IMG/VR virus record: IMGVR_UViG_3300025820_000005
Coordinates: 1 to 37,275 of that record
Strand: one strand, 5' to 3'
DNA length: 37,275 bases
Origin: a virus
Made by a program: the position numbers and the translations under genes. Shown here in pieces: positions 13,794-35,080 of the stretch (position 1 is the stretch's first letter; each line of letters opens with the position of its first letter). Under the pieces are notes generated by a model. The model was not told where the DNA came from. It worked only from the letters and a program-made list of their open reading frames with translations, and made no database searches.

Positions 13794-13831
13794 ATAATAT
13801 CGGATACATAGCGTTCTTTGACAATTAGTTG

Positions 13832-13860
13832 TTGCCAATTACTCAACCCGTAAGTATATT
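13832..13860 (+). promoter_or_regulatory. Sigma70-like promoter for the homing endonuclease
   Basis: TTGCCA (13832-13837) and TATATT (13855-13860) are separated by 17 bp, one mismatch each from or close to TTGACA/TATAAT. It lies in the 92-nt gap after the capsid gene and would start transcription near 13867, upstream of the endonuclease's GGGAGG ribosome site (13874-13879). The -10 sits in an AAGTATA-T-TATACTT palindrome (13852-13866). Confidence 0.5.
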
Positions 13861-13885
13861 ATACTTAACGATAGGGAGGTATGAT

Positions 13886-14632
13886 ATGCTTACGGACGAG
13901 TATATAGCAGGTTTCTTTGACGGTGAAGGTTGTGTGATGATTAATGCGGGCGGACGGTGTACAGTTACAATAACACAGAAAAATCCAGCTGTATTATATC
14001 TCATACAACAAAAGTTTGGTGGTAATGTTCATAAGAAACACATGAAGTTTTCTGAATGTTATCATTGGCGGTTAAGTAGCAAAAACGAAATTCTTCCGTT
14101 CCTAGAGCGAATGAAAGACCTTTGTTTCTGTAAAAAACAGGAGATTGAATTGGGATTAGAAGCTACGCATTTGGTGCGTGAAAACAATGATGGTTGTAAC
14201 CCTTTATCATCTGGCGAATATGCACAGAGATTATCAATTCGGGCGAGAATGCAGGCGTTAAGACCAAAGAAAACTTTCTGTTCATTATCTTCGCAGGAAT
14301 ATCTTTACCGCCAAAAAGTAAAAGAAGATGCTAACTGGTTATGCAATAAGTGTGGAATGGATTTAAAAGATATACGTATTCGTGACCAGATTGTCAGCGA
14401 GGAAAAATTATGGTGCCGTGCTTGCGCTGCTAATAGAACGAACCATAAACCTTTAAAGCCTATTACTAAAGAGCGTATTGAAGAAGTGTTGAATACGTAT
14501 AATAGTCTAGACGAGGCGTGTAAGGTTTTAAATATTGGCAGGTCGGCGCTGTTTAAAAAGCGCAAGGAATTTGGGTTACCACAAAGAATTGCTCTTAGGG
14601 GCAAAAAGCGTGGTACATACATAGACAAGTAG
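13886..14632 (+). CDS. LAGLIDADG homing endonuclease, free-standing, 248 aa
   Basis: Residues 6-15 read YIAGFFDGEG, a clear LAGLIDADG motif, followed by the beta-sheet and helix pattern of the family (CTVTITQKNP, LYLIQQKFGGNVH). Only one motif is present, so it would act as a homodimer. C-terminally there is a zinc finger (CNKC ... CRAC, ~residues 153-175) and a helix-turn-helix-like segment (ITKERIEEVLNTY...CKVLNIGRSALFKKR), probably for DNA targeting. I choose ATG 13886 because GGGAGG is correctly spaced. Inserted between the capsid gene and connector genes with its own promoter. The flanking gene is not split, so it is free-standing. Confidence 0.8.
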   Translation: MLTDEYIAGFFDGEGCVMINAGGRCTVTITQKNPAVLYLIQQKFGGNVHKKHMKFSECYHWRLSSKNEILPFLERMKDLCFCKKQEIELGLEATHLVRENNDGCNPLSSGEYAQRLSIRARMQALRPKKTFCSLSSQEYLYRQKVKEDANWLCNKCGMDLKDIRIRDQIVSEEKLWCRACAANRTNHKPLKPITKERIEEVLNTYNSLDEACKVLNIGRSALFKKRKEFGLPQRIALRGKKRGTYIDK

Positions 14633-19400: not shown

Positions 19401-19642
19401 AGACCGTTGCGGTAACGCATTATGCTGATGGAAATACAACGGCGTCAACTCCCGCTATAATTCCTTTTGCAAATAATAAAGCAGGTAGAAGATTTTATAA
19501 ATTTGTAAGGTCTGTATCTTTAAGAGGATGTACTCACAGTCTGGAGTTTTCCATTTCCACGACTAATGAAAGTGGAGGGTTCGCCCCCTTATATGTAAGC
19601 GGACTTTATAAAGTAATTGATTATGATATGGAGGAGACATGA
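16496..19642 (+). CDS. Tail nozzle/hub-like protein with inserted lectin-type domain, 1048 aa
   Basis: N-terminal (PFNFPLNGRLITKLDGTLLPDSHFQVLENLRYNDGGIEAISGG) and C-terminal regions (VPGGISSTLASSSFAFYDATRGEYHLLIP...VYDTIRKRWYNI) look like podovirus stabilisation or nozzle proteins such as P22 gp10, a beta-propeller closing the short tail. Residues ~198-385 are a different module: GLWKFDDNLNDSSGKAKTLT...FDGRIYV...MDEFRFN, the hallmark of a concanavalin A/laminin-G-like jelly roll that often binds glycans. Further beta repeats follow (two YYW/SxxxGTxxxGxxLxxTGxI units near residues 440-480 and 600-640). Host-surface binding by the insert is inferred. Confidence 0.7.
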   Translation: MADRDKSLTPFNFPLNGRLITKLDGTLLPDSHFQVLENLRYNDGGIEAISGGMTKINATVLPKLKVQNGFFFKKAAPNTESHIFIQVTNPADKTSAIYKSDGSDASVPEETTFSLFHTLTSDNTVYFTEAPDQSIVYCNGIGNYIWSGEEYRCGKFINFDPGGSFSYDYTVQANNNITNADNVFTLSRVLSGLLPTTEGLWKFDDNLNDSSGKAKTLTGVGTPTYTTGLFEKALALNGSSQYVYRASDADFDMSGGQWTFDGRIYVTSLATERPIWFWKTDADNYVKLFVTTGGAISFVIYDTGDKVVELTTPDGVVALNTWTYFEVAEDGDVWYLYAGTSGLATLYDIDEENNNRAVLYSENFTLGYDETTYFAGYMDEFRFNSTIIHTEPFQIPITAYTDEYGSHVYVGSTRPISGVKYYVDTANTTTGTVVGYYWDGSAWVLLSSLVDGTATAGKPLAKTGSITFSSTVDTAKVKVIEENIAYFYYFVFYGIDATTKLKEVTVYAPPQELVDIWDGTPRQVYSCIRRLLGKSTDYTPNVYALDYNANIDDTYVSIGGLTSSGWLAFGFNERVSAIKIFMGGTSVNEYVRSLSVQYWNGSEWTSVGSIEDGTSVNGRTLSRTGIISWNAPSRVNEFPVSVANSSKWYYYRLVPSGFLSIKVRIDHVQGIPVQSEIPPYRYPLLWQNRLWLLNDQSKAANAALGSSYGTACVFNGTDSGLLLFGGSKGLTAGATLFTRFGGSLYENMIVCKSNETYLVDGVSFTGEYAFVVYQVSGVRGCIAPLTMKACDTGYEVAAGVTKHVLTWLSNSGVVMFDTNSIIEVSSDVDDKVSVGVPGGISSTLASSSFAFYDATRGEYHLLIPTGTTPTYLTEELVYDTIRKRWYNIKRGTKYLWCGFQVEDSSGNAYVYGGTGDGYIERLENGTTFDGVAIAYKFRLPDSLLNQSWDTRKEIRQIRLVGKCKTTTTQTVAVTHYADGNTTASTPAIIPFANNKAGRRFYKFVRSVSLRGCTHSLEFSISTTNESGGFAPLYVSGLYKVIDYDMEET

Positions 19643-21117
19643 GTTTAATAGGCGATGCTCAGGCGTTTATAAGAGAACAAAAATACGGGCAGTCAAGGCA
19701 ATTACCGCCTAGAGGTGGAAGCCCACGGGCGCAGCCTAGCTACATGACCGCTGCTTTGGAATCTCCTGGTGGATTTCAGACACAATCTGTTGAACAGCAA
19801 TATGATACCACAAAGCAACAGAGAGAGGGAAAGCCTAAGGAAAAGCCTAGCGGTATACTGAATATGCCCGCCCTTACCTCACCTTTGAATCAGCAAATAC
19901 CTGAACTTTCTGATTTGGAAAAAGCAAAAGGATATTTGGGCATAGCTAGAACTGGTGTCGAAGCTGCTAATCTTGCAGTAAAGGGGATAGATAGTATAGC
20001 CGATACTGATTTAGGAGGTACGGTAGGAGACACTCTAGGTAGCGTTGGGGCAGCGTTGAAGCCTGCTGCTGCAGCATTGAGTGCTTATAATATAGCAAGA
20101 GGGAAAGGAACTCCAGAAGATTATAAGGCTGTTGGTATGCAGATAGGCAGAGCAGCCCCCGCTGTTATTGATGCTATTACTTCAGTAACGAGTTTAGGTT
20201 CTAATATCCCAGCAATTAGCGGGTTTGGCGGTAGCGGTAGTGCAGCCGCTGCAAGCACTGCTGCAAGTTCTCTTGGGTCTACTATTGGAGGCGTTGTGGG
20301 CGGGATTTCAAATGTGGCTGGTTATAATGCGACAAGAGAATTAGCTGGGGCAGCATTTGGGATGGGAGCCAGAACAATGCAAAAAAGTGGACACAAAGAA
20401 ACACGCCGAGCTGGACAGCAAATGAGTACATGGTTAGCACGCCCGATTTCCGAGAACGCTTCTCTAGCAATGGCATCACAACATATAACAAGAAACATTG
20501 CAGATATGTTTGGCAAGGATAATCCTGTATCTAAGTTCTTATATACTGACCCTTATGTGCGGTCAATAGGTAGAGCGATTGGGTACTTTACAAACCCCGC
20601 TGCTGGCATTGTAGACTTATTTAAAGGTAGCCAACGAAAAGCTATAAAAAATGAATTAAAGAAAATCCAGAAAAACCCAGCAACTAGGGTTGGGGCAGCA
20701 ATTTTATCTGGTGGTCTCAGCGAAATATTTTGTTTTGCTGAAGGCACGCCTATTGAAATGGAAGACGGAACTACCAAACCAGTAGAAGAAGTAAGGATAG
20801 GCGATTTCTGTAAAGGCGGTGGCTTAGTTACGGGTTATGGAGTTTGCCTGTCTGGAGATATTTATGACTATCAAAACGTCCATGTAACAGGCTCCCACGC
20901 TGTATATGAAGATAGAAAATGGATAAGAGTAAAAGATAGTAAGATTGCAAAGCCTGTAGTTCTTGATGACGTGATAAAGGTTTATATTCTGAATAATCTA
21001 AACCACTTACTGATAGTGAACGGGATTATCTTTGCCGACTTTGGTGAAGTTACCAATAGCGGACATATGAATGACGATGAGAGGTTGGAATACTTAAATG
21101 CTCATTGCAGAATTTAA
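19639..21117 (+). CDS. Virion protein with C-terminal Hint (intein-like) domain, 492 aa
   Basis: Residues 1-360 are low-complexity, Ala/Gly/Ser-rich, with amphipathic helices, as in internal virion or tail-tip proteins. From Cys365 the sequence is a Hint domain: CFAEGTPIEMEDGTTKPVEEVRIGD (block A), then NVHVTGSHAVYED (~residues 413-425) giving the block B Thr417-x-x-His420 pair, and a closing strand NHLLIVNGIIFADFGEVTN. Hint domains cleave or splice at their first Cys. The usual C-terminal His-Asn end is not seen, so N-terminal cleavage rather than splicing is expected. It overlaps an acetyltransferase gene by 20 nt. Confidence 0.75.
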   Translation: MSLIGDAQAFIREQKYGQSRQLPPRGGSPRAQPSYMTAALESPGGFQTQSVEQQYDTTKQQREGKPKEKPSGILNMPALTSPLNQQIPELSDLEKAKGYLGIARTGVEAANLAVKGIDSIADTDLGGTVGDTLGSVGAALKPAAAALSAYNIARGKGTPEDYKAVGMQIGRAAPAVIDAITSVTSLGSNIPAISGFGGSGSAAAASTAASSLGSTIGGVVGGISNVAGYNATRELAGAAFGMGARTMQKSGHKETRRAGQQMSTWLARPISENASLAMASQHITRNIADMFGKDNPVSKFLYTDPYVRSIGRAIGYFTNPAAGIVDLFKGSQRKAIKNELKKIQKNPATRVGAAILSGGLSEIFCFAEGTPIEMEDGTTKPVEEVRIGDFCKGGGLVTGYGVCLSGDIYDYQNVHVTGSHAVYEDRKWIRVKDSKIAKPVVLDDVIKVYILNNLNHLLIVNGIIFADFGEVTNSGHMNDDERLEYLNAHCRI

Positions 21118-33105: not shown

Positions 33106-33134
33106 TTGACAGGGTGTGAAGATTTTGCTATGGT
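33106..33134 (+). promoter_or_regulatory. Rightward promoter, leaderless for the HTH gene
   Basis: TTGACA (33106-33111), 17-bp spacer, TATGGT (33129-33134). The expected start point is 7 nt downstream, at or beside the A of ATG 33141, so the HTH gene mRNA would be leaderless, as with lambda cI from PRM. No ribosome site is visible before the ATG. Confidence 0.65.
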
Positions 33135-33140
33135 GTGAGC

Positions 33141-33347
33141 ATGAAAAAACAGACTTATTTTAGAAAAATAGTCAAGTTAAACCGAAAGAAGTTAGTAAAG
33201 CGGCATGGGTTCCGTCCTTCTACGGTATCAATGTGGGTTTCTGGTTCCAGGATACCTAACTGGAAGAACGCAAAAAGGTTGGCAGCCTTATTGGATATAC
33301 CAATATCTAATATGCCGTATTACAGAGCAGAAAGAATATTAGACTAA
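33141..33347 (+). CDS. HTH DNA-binding regulator, 68 aa
   Basis: The helix-turn-helix spans ~residues 15-52: KLVKRHGFRPSTVSMWVSGS then RIPNWKNAKRLAALLDI, with the turn and recognition helix of the Cro/C1 family. At 68 aa it has no dimerisation or cleavage domain, so Cro-like. Start is ATG 33141 (GTG 33135 is in frame but lies in the promoter). It likely binds the GTGTGA-type sites in the divergent region and controls the early switch. Confidence 0.75.
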   Translation: MKKQTYFRKIVKLNRKKLVKRHGFRPSTVSMWVSGSRIPNWKNAKRLAALLDIPISNMPYYRAERILD

Positions 33348-33418
33348 CACTACGGCGGGTACAAGCTGTCAGTAATGCGCTTGACGTTCCCCAACGTGCC
33401 TATTCCCGCCGTAGTGTA
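33346..33418 (+). other. Long inverted repeat between HTH and primase genes
   Basis: ACACTACGGCGGG (33347-33359) is perfectly inverted at 33405-33417, starting at the HTH gene's stop. Inside are ACGTT-CCCC-AACGT (33384-33397) and TGTCAGTA (33367-33374), the latter close to the primase-gene iteron. 90 nt without a gene; no T run after it. Could be an origin-linked or regulatory hairpin. Confidence 0.6.
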
Positions 33419-33436
33419 AGGCGAAAGGGGTGTTAA

Positions 33437-35080
33437 ATGAATAGTGAAATGAAGGAATGGGCATTAAGATATGCCGAGGCAGGTTTTTCTGTTATACCGG
33501 TAAACCATGACAAAAAGCCCATAATCAAGTGGGAACCTTACCAAAAAAGGAAAGCAACAAAAGAGGAAATAGAAAAATGGTGGACTATAACCCCGACTGC
33601 TAATATCGGAATAGTTACGGGCTCTATTTCTGGTGTGGCTGTTGTGGATATTGATACGCCAGACCTAAAAAATGAAATGCTAGATAACATTGAAACCCTG
33701 GCAGCTCCGCCTATCTCATTAACTCCAAGGGGTGGCAGGCATCAATGGTATGCTTATCCACATGAGGAAGTCCGTAACACTACTGGTATGTTCCCTAATG
33801 TGGATTTTAGAGGGGAAGGCGGTTATGTGTTAGTTCCACCTAGCACTAATGGAAATGGAAAGCCATATTCATGGAAAAATAGCATTTTAGATAATGATTT
33901 ACCTATCCTTCCTAAAGATATTATTTATATAATAAAAGGGCAAAAACCGAAAAATGCTGAAAAAGAGGACGAACTCCTTGATTTTGCGGGGAATTCGGCG
34001 TGTCAGCACCGTGTCAGCATGCTGACAAATGCTGACAAATGCTCACAAATGCTGACAGAGGGGCGGCGGGACGATGATTTGTTTCATATCGCTAACTGTT
34101 TAGTAAAAGGAGGCGCAAAGTATGCAGAGATAATGAAGGTCATAGAAATTCTTGCTAAATCATGTACTCCACAGTTTCCTATAGACCAAGCTATGGAAAA
34201 AATAAAGAGCGCCCTGAATAGGACTGAGCGTAAAGAACGCACAATCATGGAAGATGTAAGAAACTGGTGCATGATGCAGGAAGGTTTTTTTAGTGTCAAT
34301 GACTGTTGTATCGCCCTTGCTGTTAGCACAAGGCAGGATAAGAATGCTGTATATACGTCAATGGGCAGGCTTGTCAAAGAAGAACTAATAGAAAAATACG
34401 GCAAAAAATCAGGTTGCTATAGAAGGATTGAACGTGATGTAACGGAAATGGATTGGGAAAATGCGCCTACACATGACCTTGCAATAGATTATCCTTTAGG
34501 GATAGCAGACCTGGTTAGAACATATCCATCAAATATTATCATAGTAGCAGGCACAAGCAATGCGGGAAAAACTGCCTTCTTATTAGACTTTGCCAGGAGG
34601 AATGCCAGTAGATTTAAGGTGCATTACTTTAATTCAGAAATGGGGTTGAGTGAACTAAAGATGCGCCTTGATTTATTTCAAGGTGTAACAAGAGAAACAT
34701 GGCGTAAAATAAAATTCTATGAAAGGGGGGATAACTTTGTTGATGTCATTGACCCTAATGGGATTAATGTCATAGATTATCTAGAAGTATTAGATGAGTT
34801 CTGGAAAGTAGGGGCGGCAATTAAAGGAATACATGATAAGTTAAAGAATGGTATTGCAGTAATAGCAATACAAAAGAACAAGGGTGCCGACTTAGGTAGG
34901 GGTGGTGCATTAGGATTAGAAAAACCACGCCTATATTTAAACATAGAACATGGTAATTGTAAAATTATCAAGGCTAAAAACTGGCGCAGTACTGAAAACC
35001 CAAGTAATATGTCAATCAGCTTTAAACTCGCAGGTGGCTGGAAAATAATTCCAGACCAGAAAGGATGGTGCAAAGAATGA
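33437..35080 (+). CDS. Prim-Pol primase fused to RecA-like ATPase/helicase, 547 aa
   Basis: N-terminal AEP-type primase-polymerase: YAEAGFSVIPV...KKPIIKWEPYQ, NIGIVTGSISGVAVVDID (Asp71, Asp73), PRGGRHQWYAYP (His102), DFRGEGGYVLVPPS. Residues ~190-330 hold a linker and winged-helix-like part. The C-terminal domain has Walker A GTSNAGKT (Gly372-Thr379) and IAVIAIQKNKG, like KaiC/DnaB-type ATPases. Together they give primase and helicase functions for phage replication. DNA encoding residues ~189-207 contains iterons (see 34001-34057). Ribosome site GAAAGGGG. Confidence 0.85.
   Translation: MNSEMKEWALRYAEAGFSVIPVNHDKKPIIKWEPYQKRKATKEEIEKWWTITPTANIGIVTGSISGVAVVDIDTPDLKNEMLDNIETLAAPPISLTPRGGRHQWYAYPHEEVRNTTGMFPNVDFRGEGGYVLVPPSTNGNGKPYSWKNSILDNDLPILPKDIIYIIKGQKPKNAEKEDELLDFAGNSACQHRVSMLTNADKCSQMLTEGRRDDDLFHIANCLVKGGAKYAEIMKVIEILAKSCTPQFPIDQAMEKIKSALNRTERKERTIMEDVRNWCMMQEGFFSVNDCCIALAVSTRQDKNAVYTSMGRLVKEELIEKYGKKSGCYRRIERDVTEMDWENAPTHDLAIDYPLGIADLVRTYPSNIIIVAGTSNAGKTAFLLDFARRNASRFKVHYFNSEMGLSELKMRLDLFQGVTRETWRKIKFYERGDNFVDVIDPNGINVIDYLEVLDEFWKVGAAIKGIHDKLKNGIAVIAIQKNKGADLGRGGALGLEKPRLYLNIEHGNCKIIKAKNWRSTENPSNMSISFKLAGGWKIIPDQKGWCKE
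34001..34057. repeat. Iteron cluster inside the primase gene (candidate origin)
   Basis: TGTCAGCA occurs at 34001-34008 and 34012-34019; TGCTGACA at 34020-34027, 34030-34037, 34050-34057, with a variant TGCTCACA at 34040-34047. The direct copies repeat every 10 bp; 34012-34027 is a perfect 16-bp palindrome. Origin iterons inside a replication initiator gene are known in lambda and related phages. Confidence 0.65.

Follow-up and report, generated by a model that had tools for sequence, protein, structure and literature searches.

The repeat array at positions 34001-34057 of the window, the 37,275-base IMG/VR virus record analysed here in full, is probably a set of iterons for the primase encoded by the gene in which it lies, and most likely serves as the replication origin of the phage. 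Comparison across about sixty related viruses shows that the repeats change together with two residues of the predicted recognition helix of the primase, and that the repeat can often be read from the protein.

The array consists of six half-sites, two in reverse followed by four in forward orientation, all inside the primase gene. The reverse copies of TGCTGACA lie on the minus strand at 34001-34008 and 34012-34019, where the top strand reads TGTCAGCA, and the forward copies on the plus strand at 34020-34027, 34030-34037, 34040-34047 and 34050-34057; the third forward copy (iteron 5) is the variant TGCTCACA and the other three (iterons 3, 4 and 6) are exact. An earlier note on this DNA had described direct copies of an 8-mer at exact 10-bp spacing with one variant, and the forward copies agree with that description (spacings 10, 10 and 10). 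The 16-bp palindrome it reported is indeed perfect (34012-34027), but its arms are the second reverse and the first forward copy (half-site 2 on the left, iteron 3 on the right) rather than the two reverse copies. Exact TGCTGACA occurs seven times in the window, five of them within the array, against a whole-window expectation of 1.05. None of 100 shuffles matched the seven copies, and none of 3000 synonymous-codon shuffles with the protein held fixed reproduced five exact 8-mers in 60 bp (maximum four, reached twice).

The repetition belongs to the DNA and not to the peptide. Its period of 10 is not a multiple of 3 and therefore runs through all three reading frames (MLT/NAD/KCS/QMLT), which places the constraint on the DNA. 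It is extremely unlikely that the array arose incidentally from a repetitive peptide or linker, or by recent slippage, and has no role in recognition: linkers tolerate repeats, and in one group of homologues (L176-L181) part of the array is in frame with a spacing of 9, but the passage through three frames, the presence of inverted copies, the failure of synonymous shuffles to reproduce the array and the co-variation of its bases with protein residues described below all speak against it. The frame and the synonymous shuffles led us to reject a peptide repeat as the source of the array.

The gene itself (33437-35080, plus strand) was delimited as an open reading frame of 547 aa and interpreted with Pfam/PHROG profiles, AlphaFold and Foldseek. 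It encodes a Prim-Pol domain (aa 9-159, 33461-33913; PF09250, E 2e-32), the linker that carries the array, a helical PriCT-like domain modelled by AlphaFold2 at about aa 211-265, a winged-helix DNA-binding domain (aa 270-330, 34244-34426; AlphaFold and structure matches) and a DnaB/KaiC/RecA-like ATPase from about aa 350 (34484-35077; PF03796, with Foldseek matches to DnaB/RadA/KaiC). Within the winged helix, AlphaFold and the column scan place the recognition helix at aa 299-314 (34331-34378). Y306 and T307, which co-vary with c2 and c4 of the iteron respectively, are encoded at 34352-34357; all of these features are on the plus strand. The array encodes aa 189-207, in or beside a linker of low model confidence (aa 176-202). 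The full AlphaFold2 model has a mean pLDDT of 90 and a pTM of 0.52, so the relative placement of the domains is not established. When the winged helix was modelled again in isolation it matched PDB winged helices, with MecI, DpnI, Fur/PerR, ORC and Z-alpha about equal; since many match equally, we claim no specific relative. PF09250 is present in 49/51 family members by Pfam, PriCT_1 matches 19/51 homologues, with no match to the window protein at E 0.05, and DnaB_C is found in 51/51 at E 0.05, the window protein falling just under the Pfam cut-off. Just upstream of the array is an A+T-rich stretch (33861-33960; 72-75% A+T in 40-base windows against a gene mean of 60%), a candidate melting site; among the homologues, A+T-rich flanks show no family trend.

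Upstream of the primase gene, the promoter-like sequence TTGACA-17-TATGGT stands directly before a small HTH_3 regulator gene (33106-33347). Between this gene and the primase start lies an inverted repeat (33339-33425) with near-perfect G+C-rich arms, CACTACGGCGGG and CCCGCCGTAGTG, whose folding gives -34.5 kcal/mol (z -2.15) and which has no Rfam match. The partial repeat copy TGTCAGTA that had been noticed at 33367 is real and sits just inside the loop of this inverted repeat, but it carries no weight as evidence because the window has many isolated copies that deviate from the repeat at one or two positions. GC skew, proposed earlier as a check on the origin, was computed for the window and proved uninformative, as gene strand switches at the same place. 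Elsewhere in the window, inspection by eye suggests a Hint/intein-like C-terminal part (CFAEGTPIEMEDGTTKPVEEVRIGD...) in an open reading frame of the structural region (19639-21117), and a LAGLIDADG-type homing endonuclease-like product for another between structural genes (13829-14632).

As a single-protein query, the window primase returned no relatives in viral or genome contigs; they were instead recovered by alignment queries, and alignment scans of viral contigs and genomes gave about 300 loci, reduced to 138 sequences below 90% identity. Many of the genome loci belong to Desulfobacterota. Arrays were called blind to the protein alignment, with significance set at p <= 0.02 relative to synonymously shuffled genes whose flanks were shuffled as well, and with 500-bp flanks included 74/138 loci contained a significant array. 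When genes alone were considered, arrays were present in 51/125 primase genes versus 3/101 other long open reading frames from the same loci. Placement among 125 homologues was in the gene in 50, upstream in 13 and downstream in 7, while 55 had no called array within 500 bp; the earlier note had held that homologues lacking the repeats would count against an origin, and some homologues do lack them. In about half of the 125, the array is of a different 7-mer at 10- or 21-bp spacing, for which blind registration gave the form c1c2c3c4-A-C-A, in which c2 and c4 vary freely and c3 is usually C or T. Homologues keep the arrangement, with repeat and recognition helix changing together, but not the sequence TGCTGACA. 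One homologue (L104) has the same geometry as the window, two reverse and four forward copies, with TGACCTCA replacing TGCTGACA. Same-strand neighbours are 9-11 bp apart in 140/242 cases and 20-22 bp apart in 43/242, a phasing that the caller rewards. The arrays usually occupy the same linker and often the winged-helix coding region too, and 24/62 genes with a regular motif have the identical iteron in the first linker and again in the winged-helix coding region; the window gene has no second cluster there.

Direct-repeat arrays serve packaging, partition or recombination in other elements, and the array could be such a site that the primase also touches. This is highly improbable, given that the recognition residues sit in the primase-helicase and that the arrays stay with its gene across homologues.

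Among individual relatives, the closest homologue (L091) has the residues Y-T as in the window, and no such array was found in its 49.8-kb contig; where no array had been called in a gene, the motif expected from the code was not enriched (mean rank 7.9 of 16; 2/29 matches). The two full-length relatives in phage records are Methanosarcina virus MetMV and Methanomicrobiales virus vir555. Both are without TGCTGACA arrays and have other repeats in their genes: MetMV carries CGACCAC, and vir555 carries CAGTTGA/TGTTGAA, which is read in two frames. The iteron of L098 and L115 is GACGACA by blind registration, which replaced an initial reading as GTCGTCA. Besides its in-gene array, L155 has another with the same type of iteron, at about 340 to 287 bases before the start of the gene. 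Searching viral contigs for the repeat returned 84 stretches, mostly from unrelated phages. In one of the contigs (L031:2162-2464), a different Prim-Pol/helicase gene is preceded by an array of TGCTGACA in both orientations, and six related viral contigs (L009, L016, L035, L058, L067 and L076) carry two to three blocks of CATTGCTGACAATTGCTGACATT with a spacing of about 51 bp beside a G+C-rich palindromic stretch, possibly another kind of origin.

To relate iteron to protein, we scanned 452 usable protein columns against five variable iteron positions, with codons that overlap iterons masked. The pair 306~c2 ranked first (z 17.1) and 307~c4 second (z 11.4), and 0/20,000 permutations reached either value. 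The two residues are adjacent on the recognition helix of the winged helix; residues 303 and 310 of the same helix came next, with weaker links. Position c2 is G with R306 (16/16), A with N306 (5/5) or V306 (3/3), and C with Y306 (3/3), the pairing seen in the window; S306 is ambiguous (T in 18/25, A in 4 and G in 3). Position c4 is G with K307 (10/11), T with I307 (7/7) or V307 (11/14), and C with M307 (8/12). Pairings of Arg or Lys with G and of Asn with A are common in the major groove. Caller, registration and 0.02 cut-off had been settled before the column scan, but the filter for an [A/T]CA-core motif was set within the same script, and the idea of residues 306 and 307 arose from reading the alignment by eye; the scan of all columns and a held-out set were therefore run as a guard. 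This co-variation across homologues makes it very probable that the iterons are bound by their own primase. A binder other than the primase, either a host factor or the small HTH_3 regulator encoded just upstream (33141-33347), is very unlikely: the regulator gene with its promoter-like site does adjoin the primase, but the best predictors of the iteron bases among 452 columns are two adjacent residues in the recognition helix of the primase itself, and a different iteron in each phage would not be expected of a host factor.

We then asked how far shared descent accounts for the link. After thinning on a tree of the ATPase domain, 306~c2 still ranked first with 51, 35 and 22 representatives. 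On tree-independent pairs, 306 ranked second for c2, behind its neighbour 307, and 307 ranked 20th of 452 columns for c4, making the c4 link the weaker of the two on that test. With whole clades left out, the code predicted c2 correctly in 45/58 cases and c4 in 40/59, versus 12/58 and 15/59 for the nearest remaining relative. Compared column by column, 306 predicted c2 best (45/61, the next best about 31/60), and 307 was first and 310 second for c4. The held-out set comprised homologues fetched afterwards that were less than 85% identical to the training set, and in this small sample (n=14) the same table was right for c2 in 10/14, versus 6/14 for a fixed base guess and 5/14 for the nearest relative, and for c4 in 9/14, versus 6/14 and 3/14. 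In addition, among arrays with no part in the winged-helix coding region, R306 was paired with G in 8/8 cases, and overlap of coding sequence and iteron therefore does not create the link.

A natural exchange is consistent with this. Between L243 and L266, the coding regions of the Prim-Pol and ATPase domains are 73-100% identical in DNA, while the middle block (linker, PriCT and winged helix) is about 55% identical. L243 has the iteron GACCACA with residues V-M, and L266 has GTCTACA with residues S-I. L249, whose iteron is also GTCTACA, has a middle block with 72-97% identity to the one in L266. This pattern indicates that iterons and winged helix moved together. The primase of L266 (2483-5149) also has an intein-like insertion of about 330 aa within the Walker A motif of its ATPase.

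The main rival concerns the consequence of binding: the primase could bind the in-gene iterons as an operator, block its own transcription and so set copy number, with replication starting elsewhere. The co-variation shows recognition and not what follows from it, sites within a gene could act as a roadblock, and plasmid iteron arrays also serve copy control. We nevertheless regard this as unlikely, for the array lies far from the promoter and its many copies are spaced by the helical turn, the domain set of primase and DnaB-like ATPase resembles that of an initiator, and across homologues arrays lie downstream and upstream as well as within the gene, the downstream position suiting an origin better. 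For an origin, we propose that the recognition helix of the central winged helix would enter the iteron, residue 306 reading the second base and 307 the fourth, before the near-constant A/T-C-A. Sites one helical turn apart would align primase copies on one face of the DNA. The DNA may then open nearby, perhaps in the A+T-rich stretch, allowing the DnaB-like ATPase to unwind it and the Prim-Pol domain to prime. The primase would in this way be a self-contained initiator with its origin within its own gene, where replication is predicted to start. Iteron-type origins are marked by several short direct repeats in phase with the helix, within or next to an initiator gene, and the window has them; it is the co-variation that suggests a tie between repeat specificity and the DNA-binding domain of the initiator.

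Parts of this arrangement are known from other systems. The origin of phage lambda consists of direct iterons inside gene O, bound by O, with an adjacent A+T-rich segment (PMC4488673). As in lambda, the iterons of the window lie inside the coding sequence of the initiator, and of the earlier proposal of a lambda-style origin, recognition by the encoding primase is the best-supported reading, through the family-wide co-variation, while origin activity is what we infer from it. Lambda differs in that it has four 19-bp iterons, rather than six units of 7-8 bp with a 10-bp spacing, and relies on P as a separate helicase loader and on host DnaB, where the window initiator is itself primase and DnaB-like ATPase; the A+T-rich flank adjoins the iterons in lambda and is present in the window but is not a family trend. 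The window primase gave no match to the O protein in Pfam/PHROG profile scans, which a distant relation could escape. In the excerpted text of Kazlauskas et al. (2018; PMC5862659), the PrimPol-PV1 supergroup and PrimQH combine an AEP primase with PriCT, a RecA-type helicase and a winged helix, which is suggested to recognise the origin in primases of mobile elements; iterons are not described for them in that text. The window family shares the AEP Prim-Pol domain and the RecA-type P-loop helicase, whereas the winged helix is C-terminal in PrimPol-PV1/PrimQH and internal in the window protein, between the PriCT-like domain and the ATPase. SaPI Rep and SCCmec Cch2 are initiator helicases that bind short iterons beside their own gene (PMC7581432); unlike in the window, those iterons are found downstream of the gene, a separate protein serves as primase, and the DNA-binding domain of SaPI Rep is C-terminal. 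In geminivirus Rep, virus-specific iterons co-vary with a short initiator stretch, the iteron-related domain (PMC6669703, PMC12548392). Such co-variation of iteron and initiator is also seen in the window family. Geminivirus Rep acts in rolling-circle replication of plant single-stranded DNA viruses, with iterons upstream of rep, and is unrelated to the window primase. For RepA of PLE in Vibrio cholerae, replication modules are exchanged and iterons changed between related elements, under origin-directed nuclease attack (PMC8263062); the PLE iterons are semi-palindromic, about 30 bp long and in a noncoding origin with a different initiator, all unlike the window. In-gene iterons, the proposal of a winged-helix origin reader, co-variation in geminiviruses and module exchange in PLE are thus already known. 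We found no report, in the open-licence literature, of iterons in a Prim-Pol gene or of this residue-base code.

Taken together, our results lead us to favour, with some reserve, the view that Desulfobacterota phages and the viruses of methanogenic and methane-oxidising archaea share a family of self-contained replication modules. A single gene would be primase, helicase, initiator and origin, a two-residue code would set specificity, and winged helix and iterons would swap as one cassette to give each virus a private origin. If this is true, the origin specificity of many uncultured phages and archaeal viruses would be predictable from two residues and could be checked in vitro. The family would also provide a set of natural winged-helix domains, each matched to its own DNA target, a clean example of the evolution of initiator specificity, and a direct test of whether iterons inside the coding block of a DNA-binding domain let both pass on as one piece. 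In addition, the oddity of lambda, an origin inside the initiator gene, would extend to an unrelated primase-helicase.
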